A stretch of 64,000 nt of DNA, taken from contig NZ_QEKQ01000008.1 of assembly GCF_003096655.1 (NCBI RefSeq), positions 62,001 to 126,000 on the forward strand. Reading direction: 5' to 3'. A model generated the notes under the pieces. That model was not told where the DNA came from and ran no database searches. It worked only from the letters and a program-made list of their open reading frames with translations. This DNA is from Tamilnaduibacter salinus (GTDB lineage: Bacteria; Pseudomonadota; Gammaproteobacteria; Pseudomonadales; Oleiphilaceae). A program made the translations under genes and the position numbers. Numbering within the stretch: position 1 is the stretch's first letter; each line of letters opens with the position of its first letter. Of this stretch, positions 16,847-36,955 are shown piece by piece.

Positions 16847-16923
16847 GTCACCCGGTCTCCTACGCATGATTCATGAGGCGGTCATGCTACCATGCCGGCC
16901 CCGACAGCTTGGGGTCGTTGACC

Positions 16924-18027
16924 ATGGAAACCTTTGACACGGACACGGTGATCATCGGCGCTGGTGTTGTGGGGCTCGCCGTCGGGCGGGCCCTCGCGCT
17001 GTCCGGCCAGCAGGTGTTTGTGCTGGAACGTCGCGATCACTTTGGGGAGGAGACGTCCTCCCGCAACAGTGAGGTGATTCATGCCGGGATCTACTACCCG
17101 GATGATTCCCTCAAGGCCAGGCTCTGCATTGAGGGCAAACAGCGGTTGTATGAATACTGCCGCGAACGCGGCGTGCCCCATCGGAACACGGGTAAGTGGA
17201 TCATTGCAGCCCACCAGGGTCATGAGGCAGCGCTGTCCGACATTCTGACGCGGGCCGGGCGATTGGAGGTTCCGCTTGAACGGGCCGGTCAGGAGCAGGT
17301 CCGCCGGGCCCTCCCGGCGGTCACCGCGTCATCGGGTCTCTATTCACCGACGACGGGGATCATCGACAGCCATGCCCTGATGCAGTCTTTGCTGGCTGAC
17401 ATGGAGGGTGCCGGCGGCCAGTTGGTATGCCGATCGCCCGTCGAACGCATCGAACGACAGGTCGGCACTCACGAGCTTCTTCTGGGGGGCGACGTGCCCT
17501 GTCGGTTGCGCGCAACGCGGGTCGTGAATGCAGCGGGTCTGTGGGCGATCGATCTCATGAGGCGCTGGCAGGGGTATCCCTCCGACCACATTCCTGTGCC
17601 GCACTTTGCCCGGGGCAGTTACTTCAGCTATCCGGGGCAACACCCATTCAGCACGTTGGTCTATCCCGTGCCCGAACCCGGTGGGCTGGGCGTTCACCTC
17701 ACGCTCGATCTGGGCGGGCAGGCCCGGTTCGGACCCGATGTGGAGTGGGTTCAGACGCCCGACTGCCGGTTCAGTGAGAATCGGCGTGACCGCTTTGCGG
17801 ATGCCATCCGCCAATGGTGGCCGGGCCTGGAGCCGGCCCGCCTCCAGCCCGCCTACGCCGGAGTGCGTCCCAAGCTTGGCGGACCGGAGGATGGATTCCA
17901 GGACTTCCGGATTGAAGGCCCGCAGCAGCATGGCGTTGACGGCGTGGTCCAGCTACTCGGCATCGAGTCGCCCGGACTGACGGCCAGTCTGTCGATCGCG
18001 GAGCGGGTCAGGGAGCTGCTCGCCTAG
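16924..18027 (+). CDS. FAD-dependent oxidoreductase, L-2-hydroxyglutarate oxidase (LhgO)-like
   Basis: 367 residues of the DAO/glycine oxidase fold. The FAD-binding motif VIIGAGVVGLAVGRALA is near the N-terminus. The segment SSRNSEVIHAGIYYPDD, the LKARLCIEGKQRLYEYC stretch and the late YAGVRPKL resemble L-2-hydroxyglutarate dehydrogenase/LhgO. Members oxidise L-2-hydroxyglutarate or similar 2-hydroxyacids, passing electrons to the membrane. It is shorter than E. coli LhgO (about 420), so the substrate is uncertain. Start 16924 skips 17 unrelated residues of a longer frame. Its TAG stop (18025-18027) lies within CTAG, the left edge of a palindromic element. Confidence 0.82.
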   Translation: METFDTDTVIIGAGVVGLAVGRALALSGQQVFVLERRDHFGEETSSRNSEVIHAGIYYPDDSLKARLCIEGKQRLYEYCRERGVPHRNTGKWIIAAHQGHEAALSDILTRAGRLEVPLERAGQEQVRRALPAVTASSGLYSPTTGIIDSHALMQSLLADMEGAGGQLVCRSPVERIERQVGTHELLLGGDVPCRLRATRVVNAAGLWAIDLMRRWQGYPSDHIPVPHFARGSYFSYPGQHPFSTLVYPVPEPGGLGVHLTLDLGGQARFGPDVEWVQTPDCRFSENRRDRFADAIRQWWPGLEPARLQPAYAGVRPKLGGPEDGFQDFRIEGPQQHGVDGVVQLLGIESPGLTASLSIAERVRELLA

Positions 18028-18293
18028 TGTCTCGTCTGGTTAATTCGCTGACTTACTGCGTGCCTCTGACGGTTCTGGGCAAGGCGTCAGTCCGCAGGCG
18101 GGGTCACTCCCCGTCAAGGGCTGACAACGCCGCTCCAGAGCCGTCAGCGGCGCGCCCTTCGGGAGCCCCTGAAAGGTCTGATAGCCGCGTTGCGCTGACT
18201 CGATTTGGAACCACCAAACCGTCGCCATCGCGCCTTGCTCTCAGACCTTTCAATGGCTCAGTAAGTCAGCGAATTAACCAGACGAGACACTAG
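18024..18293. mobile_element. MITE-like element A with perfect 34-bp inverted ends at CTAG
   Basis: CTAG plus a 30-base terminal inverted repeat (TGTCTCGTCTGGTTAATTCG onward) at 18024-18057 is matched perfectly by 18260-18293. A nested inverted repeat TGAAAGGTCTGA / TCAGACCTTTCA (18170-18181 with 18241-18252) and CCGCT/AGCGG further in make it strongly foldable. There is no transposase frame. CTAG at both edges fits a target duplication of the type made by some IS5-family elements, so it is probably a non-autonomous derivative; the parent is not in the window. Confidence 0.85.
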
Positions 18294-18458
18294 GAGTCTG
18301 CGCGGCAGAAAGTCGCACCGCTGCGACCGCCCCGCTGCGGTCCCTTTTGAGCGCTCATTTTCGTTACATAGAACCACTATGCGCCTCAAATGACCGTCAA
18401 AATGGCCTCGCAGTGGGACGATCTCGCCTGGCGCGATTTCTACCGCGCAGACTCCTAG
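18290..18458. mobile_element. MITE-like palindromic element B, sharing CTAG with element A
   Basis: CTAGGAGTCTGCGCGG(C)AGAAA at 18290-18311 is mirrored at 18437-18458 (TTTCTACCGCGCAGACTCCTAG, written left to right in two halves), one mismatch. The interior is also imperfectly palindromic (TTTTGAGCG against CGTCAAAA). It abuts element A at CTAG 18290-18293 and ends at CTAG 18455-18458, whose reverse strand supplies the comF TAG stop. No reading frame is present. With element A it fills the whole convergent gap, where it may also act as a bidirectional terminator. Confidence 0.82.
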
Positions 18459-19111
18459 GTGTTTGGCGTCCGCGCCAGTACCCAGACTTCAATCGTTGCC
18501 GCCCCGTGCTCCCGGAGTATTCGGCTGGCGGCGCGCACGGTTGCGCCCGTGGTCATGACGTCATCCACCAGGGCGACGTGGCTGGGAACGGGGCCCCGAA
18601 CCCGGTAAGCGCCCTTCAGGTTGGCGAGTCGCTCCCGTCGGGAGAGGCCGGACTGTGTCTGGGTGTGATTCGCCCGTGTGAGCGACTGCCGGTAGACGGG
18701 AATGTTCAGCTGCCGGCTCATCCAGATGGCAATTTCCTCCGCCTGGTTGAAACCGCGGCGACGCTCCCGGGAGGGGGCCATTGGCACAGGAATCAGCGCC
18801 TGAGGGGGTGTTCGTCCGGCGTCCCGCAGTCTTTCGGCGAACAGTCGCGCGAGTGGTTTTCCGTCGGGGCGCTGTTTCTGGTACTTGAAGCGACTGATCA
18901 GCGCACTGACTGGGAATTGATAGGCCCAGGGCGCCACGACCCGGTCAAACGGTGGCGGATTCCGATGGCAGGCACCACACAGCCCCCGTTCCCCGAAACG
19001 ACCCGGCAGGGCACATCGCACGCAACCCTCTGGATTGGCAGGCAGATCGGCTTCGCAGTCCGGGCAGAGAGCAATCCTCGTTGTGGGCGCCAGGCAGGCC
19101 ACACAGGCCAT
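18455..19111 (-). CDS. comF: ComF/GntX family amidophosphoribosyltransferase-like protein
   Basis: 218 residues. An N-terminal zinc-ribbon-like part (CVACLAP, CPDCEADLP, CVRCALPG, CGACH) is followed by a phosphoribosyltransferase domain with the PRPP loop VALVDDVMTTGATVRAA and the family segment RRRGFNQAEEIA. ComF proteins serve DNA uptake in competence; the E. coli relative is GntX. Next to bioB, as in pseudomonads. ATG 19111 is chosen because longer starts (19180, 19189) would place the BirA-type operator and the bioB promoter inside the coding region; many ComF proteins do have a short N-terminal extension, so the start is unsettled. Confidence 0.85.
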   Translation of the reverse strand: MACVACLAPTTRIALCPDCEADLPANPEGCVRCALPGRFGERGLCGACHRNPPPFDRVVAPWAYQFPVSALISRFKYQKQRPDGKPLARLFAERLRDAGRTPPQALIPVPMAPSRERRRGFNQAEEIAIWMSRQLNIPVYRQSLTRANHTQTQSGLSRRERLANLKGAYRVRGPVPSHVALVDDVMTTGATVRAASRILREHGAATIEVWVLARTPNT

Positions 19112-19127
19112 GGCGGGGCGGGGCCAG

Positions 19128-19159
19128 TTGTTAACCTTTTGGCGGACAAAGGTTGACAG
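19128..19159. promoter_or_regulatory. BirA (biotin repressor) operator
   Basis: TTGTTAACC, 14 bases, GGTTGACAG. The known proteobacterial BirA site is TTGTnAACC-N14/15-GGTTnACAA; 17 of the 18 half-site positions agree, counting n as free. The right half overlaps the -35 of the bioB promoter, so BirA-biotinyl-AMP binding would block bioB transcription, the standard arrangement. Confidence 0.85.
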
Positions 19160-25119: not shown

Positions 25120-26919
25120 ATGCCTGATTACAAAGCGCCCCTGCGTGATATCAAGTTCGTCATGTCCGAGCTGCTGGACAGTGAGCAGCACTACGCCAGT
25201 CTGGAAGGTGCCGAAGACGCAACGCCGGATATGGTAGATGCCATCATCGGAGAAGGTGCCAAGTTCTGTGAACAGGTGCTGTCACCGCTGAACCAGGTGG
25301 GCGACCAGGAGGGCTGTACCTGGAGCGAGGACGGCGTGAAGACGCCGACCGGTTTCAAGGAAGCCTATCAGCAGTACGTCGAGGGCGGCTGGCCGTCCAT
25401 GGCGGCGGACGTTGAGTATGGCGGCCAGGGGCTGCCGAACTCCGTCAACCTCGTCATGAGTGAAATGGTGGGGACCGCCAACTGGGCCTGGGGCATGTAC
25501 CCGGGGCTGAGCCACGGTGCCATCAATACCCTCGAAAGCCACGGCACCGAAGAACAGAAGCAGACCTACCTGACGAAACTGATCAGCGGTGAGTGGACGG
25601 GCACCATGTGCCTGACCGAGGCCCACTGCGGTTCCGACCTGGGGACGCTTCGCTCCAAGGCAGAGCCCAACTCGGACGGCAGCTACAGCATCACCGGTAC
25701 CAAGATCTTCATCTCGGCCGGCGACCACGACATGGCCGAGAACATCGTCCACATTGTCCTGGCCCGTCTGCCGGACGCGCCGAAGGGCACCAAGGGCATT
25801 TCCCTGTTCATCGTGCCCAAGTACCTGCCGGGTGAGGATGGCAGCGCTGGTGAGAAGAACGCCGTCAGCTGCGGCTCCATCGAACACAAGATGGGTATCC
25901 ACGGTAACGCCACCTGCGTCATGAACTTTGATGGCGCCAAGGGCTGGCTGATCGGCCCGGAAAACAAGGGGCTGAACTGCATGTTCACCTTTATGAACGT
26001 GGCCCGTCTGGGAACCGCGATTCAGGGGCTGAGCCATGCGGAGCTGGGCTTCCAGGGGTCACTCGACTACGCCCGTGAACGTCTGGCGATGCGTGCACTG
26101 TCGGGACCGAAGAACCCGGAAGGCAGCGCCGACCCGATCATCGTCCACCCGGACGTGCGCCGGATGCTGCTCACCCAGAAGTCGATTGCCGAGGGTGCCC
26201 GTGCCCTCATTTACATGGCCGCGCAGCAGAGCGATATCCTGCATCAGGGCAAGACCGAGGAAGAGCGCCAGGCTGCGGACGACATGATGGGTTTCCTGAC
26301 CCCGATTGCGAAGGCATTCCTGACCGAAATGGGCCACGAGTCCGCCAATCTGGGTGTGCAGGTCTTCGGCGGTCACGGTTACATTTCTGAGTGGGGCATG
26401 GAGCAGAACGTTCGCGATGCCCGCATCGGCATGATCTACGAAGGCACCACCGGCATCCAGGCGCTGGACCTGCTGGGCCGGAAGGTTCTGATGACCCAGG
26501 GCGAGTCCCTGAAGGGCTTCACCAAGCTCGTGCACGTGTTCTGCAAGGAGAACGCGGATAACGAGCAGATGAAGGAGTTCATCGAACCGCTCCAGGCGCT
26601 GAACAAGGAGTGGGGCGAGATCACCATGACCATTGGCAAGAACGCCATGAAGAACCGGGACGAGGTGGGCGCTGCCTCCTTCGATTACCTGATGTACTCG
26701 GGTTACGCGGTCTTCGCCTACCTCTGGGCCCGTATGGCCAAGGTAGCGCTGGACAAGATGGCGGAAGGCACTGAAGAGGAAGCGTTCTACAACGCCAAGG
26801 TGGAAACGGCCCGCTTCTACTTCAAGCGTCTGCTGCCGCGCTCACGCGGGCACGTGGCCATGCTTGAAGCGGGCGCGGACTCACTGATGGCACTGCCGGA
26901 AGATCAGTTCGCGTTCTGA
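25120..26919 (+). CDS. Acyl-CoA dehydrogenase, ~600-residue DmdC-like type
   Basis: 599 residues. The short N-terminal domain (MPDYKAPLRDIKFVMSELLD) is followed by the standard dehydrogenase N, middle and C domains and an extra C-terminal domain. CLTEAHCGSDLGTLRSKAEP is in the flavin region and YEGTTGIQALDLLGRK carries the catalytic base (Glu441). This architecture is shared by the 3-methylmercaptopropionyl-CoA dehydrogenase DmdC and by pseudomonad enzymes next to the bio operon. The substrate may be fatty acyl-CoA or a short thioether acyl-CoA. The start at 25120 gives the conserved N-terminus. A paralogue is at 32978. Confidence 0.9.
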   Translation: MPDYKAPLRDIKFVMSELLDSEQHYASLEGAEDATPDMVDAIIGEGAKFCEQVLSPLNQVGDQEGCTWSEDGVKTPTGFKEAYQQYVEGGWPSMAADVEYGGQGLPNSVNLVMSEMVGTANWAWGMYPGLSHGAINTLESHGTEEQKQTYLTKLISGEWTGTMCLTEAHCGSDLGTLRSKAEPNSDGSYSITGTKIFISAGDHDMAENIVHIVLARLPDAPKGTKGISLFIVPKYLPGEDGSAGEKNAVSCGSIEHKMGIHGNATCVMNFDGAKGWLIGPENKGLNCMFTFMNVARLGTAIQGLSHAELGFQGSLDYARERLAMRALSGPKNPEGSADPIIVHPDVRRMLLTQKSIAEGARALIYMAAQQSDILHQGKTEEERQAADDMMGFLTPIAKAFLTEMGHESANLGVQVFGGHGYISEWGMEQNVRDARIGMIYEGTTGIQALDLLGRKVLMTQGESLKGFTKLVHVFCKENADNEQMKEFIEPLQALNKEWGEITMTIGKNAMKNRDEVGAASFDYLMYSGYAVFAYLWARMAKVALDKMAEGTEEEAFYNAKVETARFYFKRLLPRSRGHVAMLEAGADSLMALPEDQFAF

Positions 26920-32977: not shown

Positions 32978-34768
32978 ATGGCAGACTATCAGGCGCCGCT
33001 GCGCGATATTCGTTTTGTTCTGAATGAGGTTTTTGATGCGCCGAACTTCTGGGCATCGCTCCCCGGAGTTGCGGACAATGTCGATCCGGATACCGCGGAT
33101 GCGATTCTGGAAGAAGCTGGCAAAATAACAGCCGGGACCCTCGCCCCAATCAACCGTGAGGGCGACGAGCAGGGTTGTCAGTGGAACGATGGCGAAGTCA
33201 CCACGCCGGAAGGCTTCCGCGAGGCCTACAAAACCATGGCCGAAGGTGGCTGGGTTGGTCTCGGCGGTAACCCCGAGTTTGGCGGCATGGGCATGCCCAA
33301 GACACTGGTTGCCCAGTTCGAGGAAATGATGCAGGGCGCCAACATGTCCTTCGGTCTGGCGCCGATGCTGACCGCCGGTGCCTGCGTGGCCCTGGACGCC
33401 CATGGCAGTCAGGAACTGAAGGAAACCTACCTGCCAAAGATGTACGACGGCAGCTGGACCGGTGCCATGGACCTGACCGAGCCGCATGCCGGCACAGATC
33501 TGGGCATCATCCGCACCAAGGCGGAGCCTCGTGATGATGGCAGCTACAGCATCACCGGAACCAAGATTTTCATTACCTGGGGCGAGCACGACATGACGGA
33601 TAATATTATCCACTTCGTGCTGGCCAAGCTGCCGGACGCGCCGAAAGGTCCCAAGGGCATCTCCATGTTCCTGGTACCCAAGTACGATGTGAACGAAGAC
33701 GGCTCGCTGGGTGAGCGCAACCACTTCAGCTGCGGCTCACTGGAGAAGAAAATGGGCATCAAGGCCTCGGCCACCTGTGTCATGAACTTCGATGGCGCCA
33801 AGGGGTATCTGGTGGGTGAGCCGAACAAAGGCCTCATGGCGATGTTCACCATGATGAACTATGAGCGCCTCGGTGTCGGCGTCCAGGGCCTGGGTGCCGC
33901 AGAAGCCTCCCTGCAGAACGCCCGTGACTACGCCATGGAGCGGACCCAGAGCCGTGCGCCCACCGGCCCGCAGGAAAAGGACAAGGCGGCCGACCCGATC
34001 ATCGTGCATCCGGACGTGCGCCGCATGCTCCTGACAATGAAGGGCTACGTCGAAGGGGGCCGGGCGTTCTCAACCTATGTCGCCCAGTGGCTGGACGTGG
34101 CGAAGTTCGCGGAGGACGAAGAGCGGCGCAAGCAGGGCGATGCGATGGTGGCCCTGCTCACTCCGGTGGCCAAGGCGTTCCTGACCGATCGTGGCCTGGA
34201 TGCCTGTGTCATCGGCCAGCAGATCTTCGGTGGTCACGGCTTCATTCGCGAGTGGGGTCAGGAACAGCTGGTCCGCGATACCCGCATCACGCAGATCTAC
34301 GAGGGGACCAATGGGATTCAGGCGATGGACCTGATGGGCCGCAAAGTCGTGGCAAACCAGGGCAAGTACTTTGAACTGTTTGCGAAAGACGTGGCTGCGT
34401 TCATCGAGGAGAACAGCGATAACGACGCGCTCAGACCGTATCTGGGGCAACTCGCGGCGGCGCTGGAACGCCTGGATGATGTGACGGAAACCGTCATCAA
34501 GCAGGCGGGCGAGAACCCCAACGAAGTGGGGGCGGCAGCCGTCGATTACCTCGACCTGTTTGGCCTGACCGCTCTGGGTTACATGTGGGCGATGATGGTC
34601 AAGGCGGCGGCGCCGAAAGCGCAAGACGATACGTCCGGTTTCTACACGGGCAAGCTCAAGACCGCGCGTTTCTACTTCGATCGACTGCTGCCCAAAACCG
34701 TGTCTCTGGCAGAAGGCATCCGCAGTGGAAGTGGTGCGATGATGGCGCATTCTGCCGAGGAGTTCTGA
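32978..34768 (+). CDS. Second DmdC-like acyl-CoA dehydrogenase
   Basis: 596 residues, same architecture as the protein at 25120-26919. The N-terminus MADYQAPLRDIRFVLNEVFD, flavin-region MDLTEPHAGTDLGIIRTKAEP and catalytic YEGTNGIQAMDLMGRK (Glu442) are all present. The two paralogues differ enough to suggest distinct substrates. GAAGAGGA precedes the ATG. Unlike the first paralogue, no AAAC-N4-GTTT operator was seen upstream, so the two may be regulated differently. A terminator follows. Confidence 0.9.
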   Translation: MADYQAPLRDIRFVLNEVFDAPNFWASLPGVADNVDPDTADAILEEAGKITAGTLAPINREGDEQGCQWNDGEVTTPEGFREAYKTMAEGGWVGLGGNPEFGGMGMPKTLVAQFEEMMQGANMSFGLAPMLTAGACVALDAHGSQELKETYLPKMYDGSWTGAMDLTEPHAGTDLGIIRTKAEPRDDGSYSITGTKIFITWGEHDMTDNIIHFVLAKLPDAPKGPKGISMFLVPKYDVNEDGSLGERNHFSCGSLEKKMGIKASATCVMNFDGAKGYLVGEPNKGLMAMFTMMNYERLGVGVQGLGAAEASLQNARDYAMERTQSRAPTGPQEKDKAADPIIVHPDVRRMLLTMKGYVEGGRAFSTYVAQWLDVAKFAEDEERRKQGDAMVALLTPVAKAFLTDRGLDACVIGQQIFGGHGFIREWGQEQLVRDTRITQIYEGTNGIQAMDLMGRKVVANQGKYFELFAKDVAAFIEENSDNDALRPYLGQLAAALERLDDVTETVIKQAGENPNEVGAAAVDYLDLFGLTALGYMWAMMVKAAAPKAQDDTSGFYTGKLKTARFYFDRLLPKTVSLAEGIRSGSGAMMAHSAEEF

Positions 34769-34867: not shown

Positions 34868-35560
34868 TCAGGACGCGTCACCCCAGATTGAATCGTCGAA
34901 CATGGCGTCCGGGTTGGTAATGAAGCGGTTGTCATTACCCTGCAATTCACGAATACGGTGATTGCGTGTCAGCTCCAGGTCTCCAGGCGGGTCGGCCTGG
35001 TGCCAGCGCTTAAAGACATCATTGGAGCCCGGCGCCGGCAGGTCGTAGGTGTCCATGACATACACCACGCCCCGGGCGACATCGCCTTTGATCCGGTCGG
35101 GTGGCTCAATGTTCTGGAAGCCCTCTTTCAGACCGCATTCGCCTTTGGGTGCTGTGGAGGTCATCTCACCGTAGCCGGCGTTGCGGCGCTTCATTTCAAT
35201 ACGGCTCTTGATGGGCACCATGTTGTGCAGATCCGACGCGACGTGCCGGTAGACCTCGCTGTTGCGCTCGCACTGGGACTTGGTGCCACAGCGCAGCGCA
35301 TCCCGGACTCGATTCAGGGGGTAGATGTACCCCTGGGTGATGAGAAAACTGTCCTGGCCAAACTGTTTGTTGCAGAAAAACGTGTTCCCACCCTGTTTAT
35401 AGAGTTTGCCCCAGAAGATGTCTTCGACGGTTTTTTCCGGGTTGGAGAAGCGATTCTGGGCGTGTCCGGGAAGAATGAACAGAACAGAAGCAGTCAATGC
35501 CGCTCCTGACACCAAGGCGATCAGGCGGGTGAAAAAAGAGGTTGTCGTGGTTTTCGTCAT
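34868..35560 (-). CDS. Endonuclease I (EndA) family-like protein lacking the catalytic Glu-His
   Basis: 230 residues with a signal peptide (~1-35, ending GHAQ), hence exported. FFCNKQFGQ, the cysteine-containing LRCGTKSQCE, VYRHVASDLHNMVP, GDVARGVVYVMDTYDL, FKRWHQADPP and RNHRIRELQGNDNRFI line up with periplasmic nuclease EndA/Vvn. In that family EWEHVVP carries the catalytic Glu-His; here the matching stretch reads TQGYIYP, giving Gly-Tyr (about residues 77-78). It may therefore bind nucleic acid without cutting, or cut by another residue. It starts with ATG in an isolated unit. Confidence 0.72.
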   Translation of the reverse strand: MTKTTTTSFFTRLIALVSGAALTASVLFILPGHAQNRFSNPEKTVEDIFWGKLYKQGGNTFFCNKQFGQDSFLITQGYIYPLNRVRDALRCGTKSQCERNSEVYRHVASDLHNMVPIKSRIEMKRRNAGYGEMTSTAPKGECGLKEGFQNIEPPDRIKGDVARGVVYVMDTYDLPAPGSNDVFKRWHQADPPGDLELTRNHRIRELQGNDNRFITNPDAMFDDSIWGDAS

Positions 35561-35767
35561 AATGATTACTCCTCAATCCCTGGCTGGGTGAGCGAATCTA
35601 TATCGCCGCCGGAACGTTGTTGGAGATTCCTACCGTTCATTATAGGACGGCGGCAGTGTCTGAGACGCAAGGATTGTAGGACATTGACTACAGAATGTAA
35701 GCATTTGCATCTAAACCGGTGGGCTTTGGCCTGAATGGCAATGGGCCAGGCGCCAGCGGTGCGCCGT

Positions 35768-35794
35768 CGATCAGCGAATGAACCAGACTCCTAG
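35768..35794. repeat. Fragment of a CTAG-type element end
   Basis: GATCAGCGAATGAACCAGAC followed by TCCTAG resembles the right end of element A (GTCAGCGAATTAACCAGACG...CTAG at 18265-18293). It stops at the same CTAG (35791-35794) where element C begins, repeating the end-to-end layout at 18.3 kb. No left partner was found. Confidence 0.55.
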
Positions 35795-35957
35795 CCCGCA
35801 TTTCTCACCAAGGGTTCGGATTTTGCGCGCCCCTGGCTTCACATCTGGGCCAAATGGCCCTTGGACGGGGCTACGGCCACGCCCGGCGGTCCATTTGGCC
35901 CACCTGTTTCCCCAGGAACACGCAAAATCCGAACCCTTCGTGAGAAATCCGGGCTAG
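35791..35957. mobile_element. MITE-like palindromic element C between CTAG sites
   Basis: CTAGCCCGCATTTCTCACCA (35791-35810) and the following AGGGTTCGGATTTTGCG are mirrored at 35921-35957 with two mismatches over 37 bp, and pairing continues inward (GGGCCAAATGG with CCATTTGGCCC). The whole 167-bp unit can fold into one hairpin. No coding capacity. The right CTAG supplies the holA TAG stop on the reverse strand. The remaining 393-bp gap to the endonuclease-like gene (35561-35767) shows no clear feature. Confidence 0.83.
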
Positions 35958-36955
35958 CGGAGTGCGGTTGCCAGTTCTCTCAGGTAATACCAGGCCGACA
36001 TGCGCCCATAGCCTTTGGCGGCGCGGTCGATGTCGCTACATTGCGTCAGAGCGGCCCGGAGCCGGATCGGGCTGAGTCTTGAGCCGGCTTCCTGGAGCTG
36101 TTGTGCGCGTTGTTTCGGGAACACGCGCTGGCGTTGACAGAATGCGGCGGGCGATTCGCCATGGCGGCGTGCCTGCTGGAGCTGCAGGGTCATCCGGATG
36201 TCCCGGCTCAGTAGCCCCAGCAGTGGCAGCGGATTCTCGCCTTCCTGCTCCAGAACGCCCAGAATCCGGTGGGCCTGTCGGACCTGTCCGCGCATCAGGG
36301 CCGCAATGAGCTCGAACGCGCTGAAACGGGCGCTGTCCATGACGGCCTGCTCAATAAACGTATCATCCAGGGTTTCATCTGGAGCGAGCAGGGCGAGTCG
36401 ATCGACTTCCTGACTGGCCGCCAGCAGATTACCCTCCAGGCGTTCGGTGAGGGCTTCAAGGGCACCTTTCGTCAGGTGCAGGCCACGGCTGTGAGCGCGT
36501 TTGCGCAGCCACTCCGGGAAGCGCTCGGGATCCAGTGGCCAGATCGGCACGTGAACCCCGTGGTTCTGTAGCGCTTTGTACCATTTCTTGCGGGTTTCGG
36601 AACGTTCCAGGCGGGCGCCGATCAGCAGGACAATGACGTCTTCAGGCGGCCGGGTCAGCGCCTGTTCGATCACGGCCTGGCCATCATTGCCCAGTCGGCC
36701 ACTGCCGAGGTGAACCTCGATACGGCGCTTCTCTGCGAACAGGGACAGGGCATTGAGTTCTTCCCCCACCACCTGCCAATCCAGCTGCTGATCGGCATGA
36801 TAGACCTGCCGGTCCTCGTATCCTGCTTTCCGCGCGGCGTCACGGATTTCATCACAGGACTCCTGAACGAGCAGCGGCTCATCGCCGGAGACCAGATAGA
36901 CCGGTTTGAGGCCTTTCTCCAGTGATCGGGTCAGTTCATGGGGCTTGGTCGTCAC
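35954..36955 (-). CDS. holA: DNA polymerase III subunit delta HolA (GTG start)
   Basis: 333 residues, the usual length. YLVSGDEPLLVQESCDEIR at the N-terminus, LSLFAEKRRIEVHL, and GLHLTKGALEALTERLEGN are typical of the clamp-loader delta subunit, which opens the beta clamp. The GTG start lies 20 bp inside the end of lptE, behind GGGAG. The stop TAG lies in the CTAG edge of element C. Order leuS-lptE-holA is the common gammaproteobacterial one. Confidence 0.95.
   Translation of the reverse strand: MTTKPHELTRSLEKGLKPVYLVSGDEPLLVQESCDEIRDAARKAGYEDRQVYHADQQLDWQVVGEELNALSLFAEKRRIEVHLGSGRLGNDGQAVIEQALTRPPEDVIVLLIGARLERSETRKKWYKALQNHGVHVPIWPLDPERFPEWLRKRAHSRGLHLTKGALEALTERLEGNLLAASQEVDRLALLAPDETLDDTFIEQAVMDSARFSAFELIAALMRGQVRQAHRILGVLEQEGENPLPLLGLLSRDIRMTLQLQQARRHGESPAAFCQRQRVFPKQRAQQLQEAGSRLSPIRLRAALTQCSDIDRAAKGYGRMSAWYYLRELATALR

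Follow-up and report, generated by a model that had tools for sequence, protein, structure and literature searches.

Palindromic elements with IS1380-, IS1182- and IS630-type ends share CTAG edges in Tamilnaduibacter salinus

At the 3' end of holA in Tamilnaduibacter salinus, unrelated palindromic elements are joined at the tetranucleotide CTAG, and the outermost CTAG provides the stop codon of the gene. This arrangement raises the question of what the elements are, and whether gene ends attract them. We analyzed a window of 64,000 nucleotides (the whole stretch of DNA presented here), which belongs to a draft genome of 3.40 Mb in 23 contigs. Element C occupies positions 35,791 to 35,957, without assigned strand and with both CTAG edges counted in. 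Its left CTAG (35,791–35,794) is common to C and to an A-type end fragment, and its right CTAG (35,954–35,957) contains, on the minus strand, the TAG that terminates holA. The earlier note had described C as a near-perfect palindrome of 167 bp between two CTAGs. We confirmed the size and the edges, while "near-perfect" was slightly generous: the arms (35,791–35,860 and 35,888–35,957; 70 nt each) are complementary at 58 of 70 positions (83%) without gaps. Folded as RNA, C reached −133 kcal/mol (z = −14.2), and none of 200 dinucleotide shuffles folded equally well.

The holA gene (DNA polymerase III delta subunit) lies on the minus strand at 35,954–36,955 as an ORF of 333 amino acids with a Pfam match to HolA, which bears out the proposal that the right CTAG forms its stop. 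Three named relatives of this protein were found, all from Marinobacter species and 58% identical, and their C-termini fall at nearly the same position, a few residues apart at most. Because the protein ends agree, element C sits at the natural end of the gene, and holA has not been shortened. The A-like fragment proposed beside the left CTAG was also recovered: it occupies 35,748–35,790 on the minus strand and carries a GAGTCTGG tip, and over 41 bp (35,748–35,788) it is 85% identical to the terminal part of an A-type copy. Downstream of the array is an endonuclease I-like gene (34,868–35,560, minus strand; ORF and Pfam). No other genome of the genus was present among the genomes searched. Elsewhere in the window, 25,675–26,204 and 33,536–34,065 contain two pairs of stretches that are 75–80% identical and 7861 bp apart; the latter region lies inside a 596-aa ORF that resembles acyl-CoA dehydrogenase by eye, and the two are likely paralogous genes.

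A second locus in the window shows the same arrangement with two other families. Element A, a putative MITE with IS630-type ends, occupies 18,024–18,293 including both CTAGs; it is a palindrome of 262 bp when these are left out. Element B, a putative MITE with IS1182-type ends, occupies 18,290–18,458, measures 161 bp between its CTAGs and shares the CTAG at 18,290 with A. Neither has an assigned strand, and neither contains a gene. The left CTAG of A includes the TAG stop of a FAD-dependent oxidoreductase gene (16,873–18,027, plus strand), and the right CTAG of B includes the TAG stop of a phosphoribosyltransferase-domain gene (18,455–19,150, minus strand, 5' bound provisional), which we take to be ComFC-like.

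We analyzed how regularly CTAG borders the copies of each family. Similarity searches gave 68 matches to the elements in T. salinus, and 23 of these, shorter than our limit for near-full copies (at least 93% of full length), were left out of the edge counts. CTAG flanked both sides of 10 of the 14 near-full copies of A, 15 of the 28 of B and all three of C; counted edge by edge, 64 of 90 were CTAG and 12 were CCAG, read towards the element. The earlier note had allowed that C might occur only once, or that its CTAG edges might be lost in other copies. In fact, a fourth copy was found in a relative (G022), and all four copies are bounded by CTAG on both edges. The holA copy measures 159 bp inside its CTAGs, and the other two T. 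salinus copies and the G022 copy about 241 bp. C was present in 2 of 58 genomes and A, by similarity, in 10 of 58, T. salinus being included in both counts; of the 163 genomes from the family that were searched, 51 carry an A end followed by CTAG.

Some A-type elements carry, instead of TGTCYCGTCTGG, the second tip type GAGTCTGG, which resembles an IS1182 end. Such elements were found in the window at 35,748–35,790 and elsewhere in T. salinus at C3:113509, C3:139543, C7:129712 and C2:426799 (contig:position); they are possibly hybrids moved by an IS1182 transposase. We also observed tiny A-ended elements of about 31–36 bp between CTAG or CTAG-like edges, which are nearly two ends placed back to back (loci L038, CTAG 1501 to 1539; L283, 3744–3774; L273 and L280; also genomes G071, G104 and G126).

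The ends of C point to the IS1380 family. A blastn search with the right arm of C gave 24-bp matches in seven plasmid records, and in all four records that we examined the match adjoins an IS1380-family transposase gene. One of these elements is the named ISMaq4, from the Marinobacter nauticus plasmid pMAQU02, with CTAG at both ends. ISMaq4 and related IS1380-family elements of Marinobacter and Halomonas carry CCCGGATTTCTCA at their ends and lie between two CTAGs (L180, L183), as C does, and a further one (L181) has one end slightly off this type. They differ from C in having a transposase gene; C has none and matches them at the ends alone. With the IS1380 element at L154, the terminus of C shares exact matches of 17 and 16 bp at the two ends, and the similarity is confined to these ends, with none found in the interior.

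Fifteen IS1380 loci from relatives were compared. In six of them, from five genomes, each end shows CTAG and then CCCGGATTTYTCA: one element of G010 is represented twice (L151 and L177), and L153, L154, L157 and L178 come from four other genomes. In the remaining nine, CTAG on both sides was not observed: the ends of L150, L167 and L152 are related but bordered by CTAA or TTAA on both sides, a third G010 copy (L168) is bordered on both sides by TTAG, and the other five show one such end or none. The wider target of this IS1380 group therefore looks like YTAR, with CTAG as its palindromic form. C has terminal inverted repeats in common with the IS1380 elements and the same kind of target duplication, and by its ends and its edges C is classed as an IS1380 MITE. 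No match to an IS1380 transposase was found in the T. salinus draft genome.

For element B, the corresponding relatives belong to the IS1182 family. Among 49 records, the B end matched plasmids of Marinobacter M3C and Halomonas KO116, the other matches listed being partial. The KO116 plasmid carries an IS1182 element that matches B exactly across 18 bp at one end (18/18) and across 15 bp at the other; its protein, WP_035561699.1, scored 369 bits against NF033551 (cut-off 270). This element is bounded by CTAG on both sides, like B, and differs in having a transposase gene where B, at 161 bp, has none. At the same locus (L183), IS1380 and IS1182 transposase genes are adjacent, and CTAGs at 2437, 4001 and 5584 bound the two elements, the middle one being common to both. 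The IS1380/IS1182 pair (L183, 2437–5587) sits amid copper-related genes and is a transposase-bearing version of the array in the window. On the M3C plasmid, an element between two CTAGs has exact matches of 18 and 17 bp to the two ends of B, and its IS1182 gene is broken into two ORFs.

Among 30 IS1182 loci in relatives, four have GAGYCTG/CAGCCTG tips and CTAG on both sides; they come from two genomes, with two copies apiece. In the other 26, many of them partial, CTAG on both sides was not observed. Since many IS1182 and IS1380 loci did not show CTAG on both sides, CTAG use belongs to subgroups of these families. B has its ends and its CTAG edge in common with the IS1182 elements, and no similarity to IS1182 interiors was found beyond the ends. 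Judged by these ends, B would be a MITE that derives from an IS1182 subgroup inserting at CTAG. We saw no B-type IS1182 in T. salinus; the sole IS1182-like match there (L233) has other ends. The sole PF01609 match in T. salinus (L096), at the same place, was rejected as a donor, as it has other ends and no CTAG edges. Two other transposase-like genes of T. salinus, named by eye, are IS3-like (C1:550-1224, at a contig end) and IS30-like (C5:216878-217804); neither fetched locus around them contains CTAG.

The origin of A was traced by searching 163 genomes for an A end followed by CTAG and fetching 40 stretches around such ends, mostly around ends listed without a partner. In the relative G130, two A-type ends lie 1178 bp apart, each followed by CTAG, around an ORF of 360 amino acids. 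This ORF encodes an IS630-family transposase (NF033545, 300 bits, cut-off 100; Pfam DDE_3). The ends of the element align with A over 22 bp at 95% identity and with a second A copy over 18 bp at 100%, with 19/24 and 21/24 positions agreeing with A, and nothing in its interior matches A. In Marinobacter SBY-1 and Pseudomonas MPC6, IS630 copies likewise lie between CTAGs, and their ends are related to those of A, though less closely (16–18 of 24). The IS630 elements of Marinobacter sp. SBY-1 and of G130 thus carry A-type ends between CTAGs as A does, and A differs as a gene-less palindrome of 262 bp. A combines IS630 ends with insertion at TA, and duplication of TA and duplication of CTAG look alike at such a site. 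Identified by its ends, A is probably a MITE of an IS630 (Tc1/mariner-type) element. IS630 itself is reported to favour the TA within 5'-CTAG-3' (Tenzen and Ohtsubo 1991, as referenced in PMC2170065).

Other searches with the A ends set the limits of this assignment. No pair of A ends at insertion-sequence spacing was observed in 58 genomes including T. salinus; the G130 element came from the search of 163 genomes. An IS630 copy of P. luteola, one of three plasmid relatives of the G130 transposase that we examined, did not show A-type ends. Plasmid searches with the A ends gave no match, unrelated weak matches or weak matches; weak ones in two Rhodococcus plasmids (H37 and H38; 27 bases including CTAG, 85%) lie 43 bp from IS630 transposase matches (H51 and H52). 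Viral contigs gave zero matches to the A end. An apparent A-ended element of 1.8 kb in G096 (L255) was rejected, as it is really an A element plus a separate end, with no transposase among its ORFs by eye. IS481 was considered as well, Bordetella IS481 being linked with an NCTAGN target; it was rejected as the source of A, with no A-type ends in 29 loci matching the IS481 model, many of which are IS3-like by score.

How unrelated elements come to be joined at one CTAG is illustrated by locus L002, where C sits inside an A-type element. Once C and one CTAG are removed, the alignment of the remaining sequence with A is ungapped at the site, and one single-base gap lies about 40 bp away; the restored site reads CTAG where A has CTTG. 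This shows a 4-bp CTAG target duplication for C. The window contains only six CTAGs in 64 kb, five of them at elements. Over a background of 184 kb, which consists of the window, itself picked for its elements, and six 20-kb stretches, we saw 31 CTAGs against 107 expected from a Markov estimate. Docking and chaining follow from this rarity and from the new CTAG that every insertion leaves behind.

We then compared the number of joints with random reuse of sites. The T. salinus sample (380,182 bases in 60 chunks, built around elements) contains 16 CTAGs that are flanked left and right by element ends, 5 of which rest on a match of 5–8 bases on one side. With 222 free sites, a rough figure extrapolated from the 12 CTAGs that lie outside genes and elements in 184 kb, random reuse predicts about 13 two-sided CTAGs (95% 8–19) for 61 insertions and about 18 (12–25) for 74 insertions; between 100 and 400 free sites, the mean for 61 insertions runs from 23 to 8. 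The observed number is close to the random expectation, so chaining needs no special attraction. The earlier note had held that unrelated families use one target and that each insertion creates the next. Both points are supported by C inside an A-type element with its CTAG duplication, the 16 two-sided CTAGs and the IS1380-CTAG-IS1182 series of KO116.

CTAG edges also decay. Very Short Patch repair has CTWGG as its context. Since B starts with G, its edges read CTAGG. Single T-to-C-type changes at B edges (for example L032, L033 and L035) gave CCAG in 10 cases and CTGG in one, read towards the element, and this bias from CTAG to CCAG agrees in direction with Very Short Patch repair. In E. coli and its close relatives, this repair tends to eliminate CTAG, according to the relevant part of PMC5337935. 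Near C8:155858, one edge has decayed to CTGG, and the gene as called extends past it into the element.

The remaining question is whether gene ends as such attract the elements, as the claim that CTAG 3' ends act as docking points implied. In the sampled T. salinus sequence, stops occur in 20 of 46 CTAG-edged arrays against 6 of 23 unoccupied non-genic CTAGs, an excess that is not significant (OR 2.2, p = 0.19); beforehand, six CTAGs within 80 bp of an element edge, two of them at stops, had been reassigned from unoccupied sites to arrays. When 58 arrays were found by similarity, whatever their edges, 18 abutted a TAG stop. Genes for these counts, and for the one in relatives, came from a simple codon-usage caller of our own instead of a standard annotation tool; it missed the stop of the gene at 18,455. 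In relatives, stops occur in 24 of 70 occupied and 9 of 53 unoccupied CTAGs (p = 0.04), a count that sees only intact-CTAG edges and is therefore biased towards sites where CTAG was kept as a stop. Stop placement is thus 1.7–2 times commoner at occupied than at unoccupied sites. CTAG is supported as the common target. Neither of the two data sets establishes that gene ends as such, or stop codons in particular, are favoured, and a mild extra preference is possible. A C-preceded TAG stop is one of few harmless targets, because the duplication keeps the stop, and this harmlessness would be enough to produce most of the gene-end pattern.

An active mechanism would read the same counts differently. 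Elements could be directed to gene 3' ends by transcription termination or stop context, with the stop CTAG as an active docking signal that is possibly retained because the palindrome ends the transcript. The excess of stops in both data sets and the very strong hairpin that C forms directly after the holA stop agree with such direction. We nevertheless consider it improbable, as 26 of 46 arrays lie away from stops, the T. salinus excess falls short of significance, the relatives' count sees only intact-CTAG edges, and the 551 bp around C contain only one weak terminator-like match where 0.3 are expected.

Two further readings concern the machinery of movement. Being palindromic, mostly intergenic, repeated and clustered, the elements could be REP/BIME-like palindromes, mobilized by a RAYT (tyrosine) transposase, rather than MITEs of DDE transposases. 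To our knowledge, REP/RAYT palindromes make no target duplication, so the direct CTAG duplication by C does not fit them, and both the end sequences and the CTAG edges agree with those of three DDE insertion-sequence families; a REP/RAYT origin is thus extremely improbable. We give just as little credence to a single transposase that recognizes the CTAG junction alone and moves A, B and C. The same edge on all three families and the occurrence of A-type bodies with either TGTC... or GAGTCTGG tips would suit it, but each end type is found on a distinct transposase-bearing element with a distinct transposase family.

The explanation that we consider very likely is that A, B and C are MITEs of IS630, of a CTAG-inserting IS1182 subgroup and of IS1380, respectively, which are mobilized in trans, converge on CTAG and come to lie at stop codons without any machinery aimed at gene ends. 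The three kinds of transposase, presumably supplied in trans, would cut at their respective ends; from the end sequences, we infer that IS1380, IS1182 and IS630 transposases mobilize C, B and A. The donor elements have probably been lost or reside on other replicons. The cut ends would be joined to CTAG and leave CTAG on both sides, with a 4-bp duplication for C; for A, a duplication of TA within CTAG and one of all four bases would look the same. Insertions inside genes are presumably selected against, and the tolerated targets would be intergenic CTAGs, C-preceded TAG stops, where insertion would retain the stop codon, and the edges of earlier elements. CTAG depletion and this set of tolerated targets would together produce arrays of unrelated elements and their placement at stops, with no dedicated gene-end mechanism.

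The arrays are ordinary in kind and unusual in combination. In Pseudomonas syringae, the small element MITEPsy1 duplicates CTAG or YTAA on insertion, according to the portion of PMC3189936 that describes it. It shares CTAG duplication with the elements described here and differs in its length of 100 nt, its other ends and its single family (same portion of PMC3189936). ISPsy32 has a CTAG target in the pertinent part of PMC8027508. In the open-licence literature, as far as its accessible parts go, we found single-family cases only and no description of arrays in which more than one family uses CTAG; the parts of PMC3281130 and PMC8024623 that bear on the subject added nothing on CTAG sharing.

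A broader and more speculative idea is that CTAG is a common refuge of three unrelated transposon families in the CTAG-poor genomes of the Marinobacter family, with C-TAG stops as privileged sites. Selection for the stop would protect CTAG from decay there, and gene 3' ends would become lasting nucleation points for palindrome chains that shape transcript ends. We regard this idea as rather unlikely, though less so than active direction to gene ends.

Overall, three unnamed repeat families gain likely transposase donors, and a puzzling gene-end arrangement is explained without a new mechanism. The arrays are a natural example of how transposons from different families assemble through one rare four-base target that they share, and they make the balance between CTAG loss by mutation and CTAG gain by insertion measurable.
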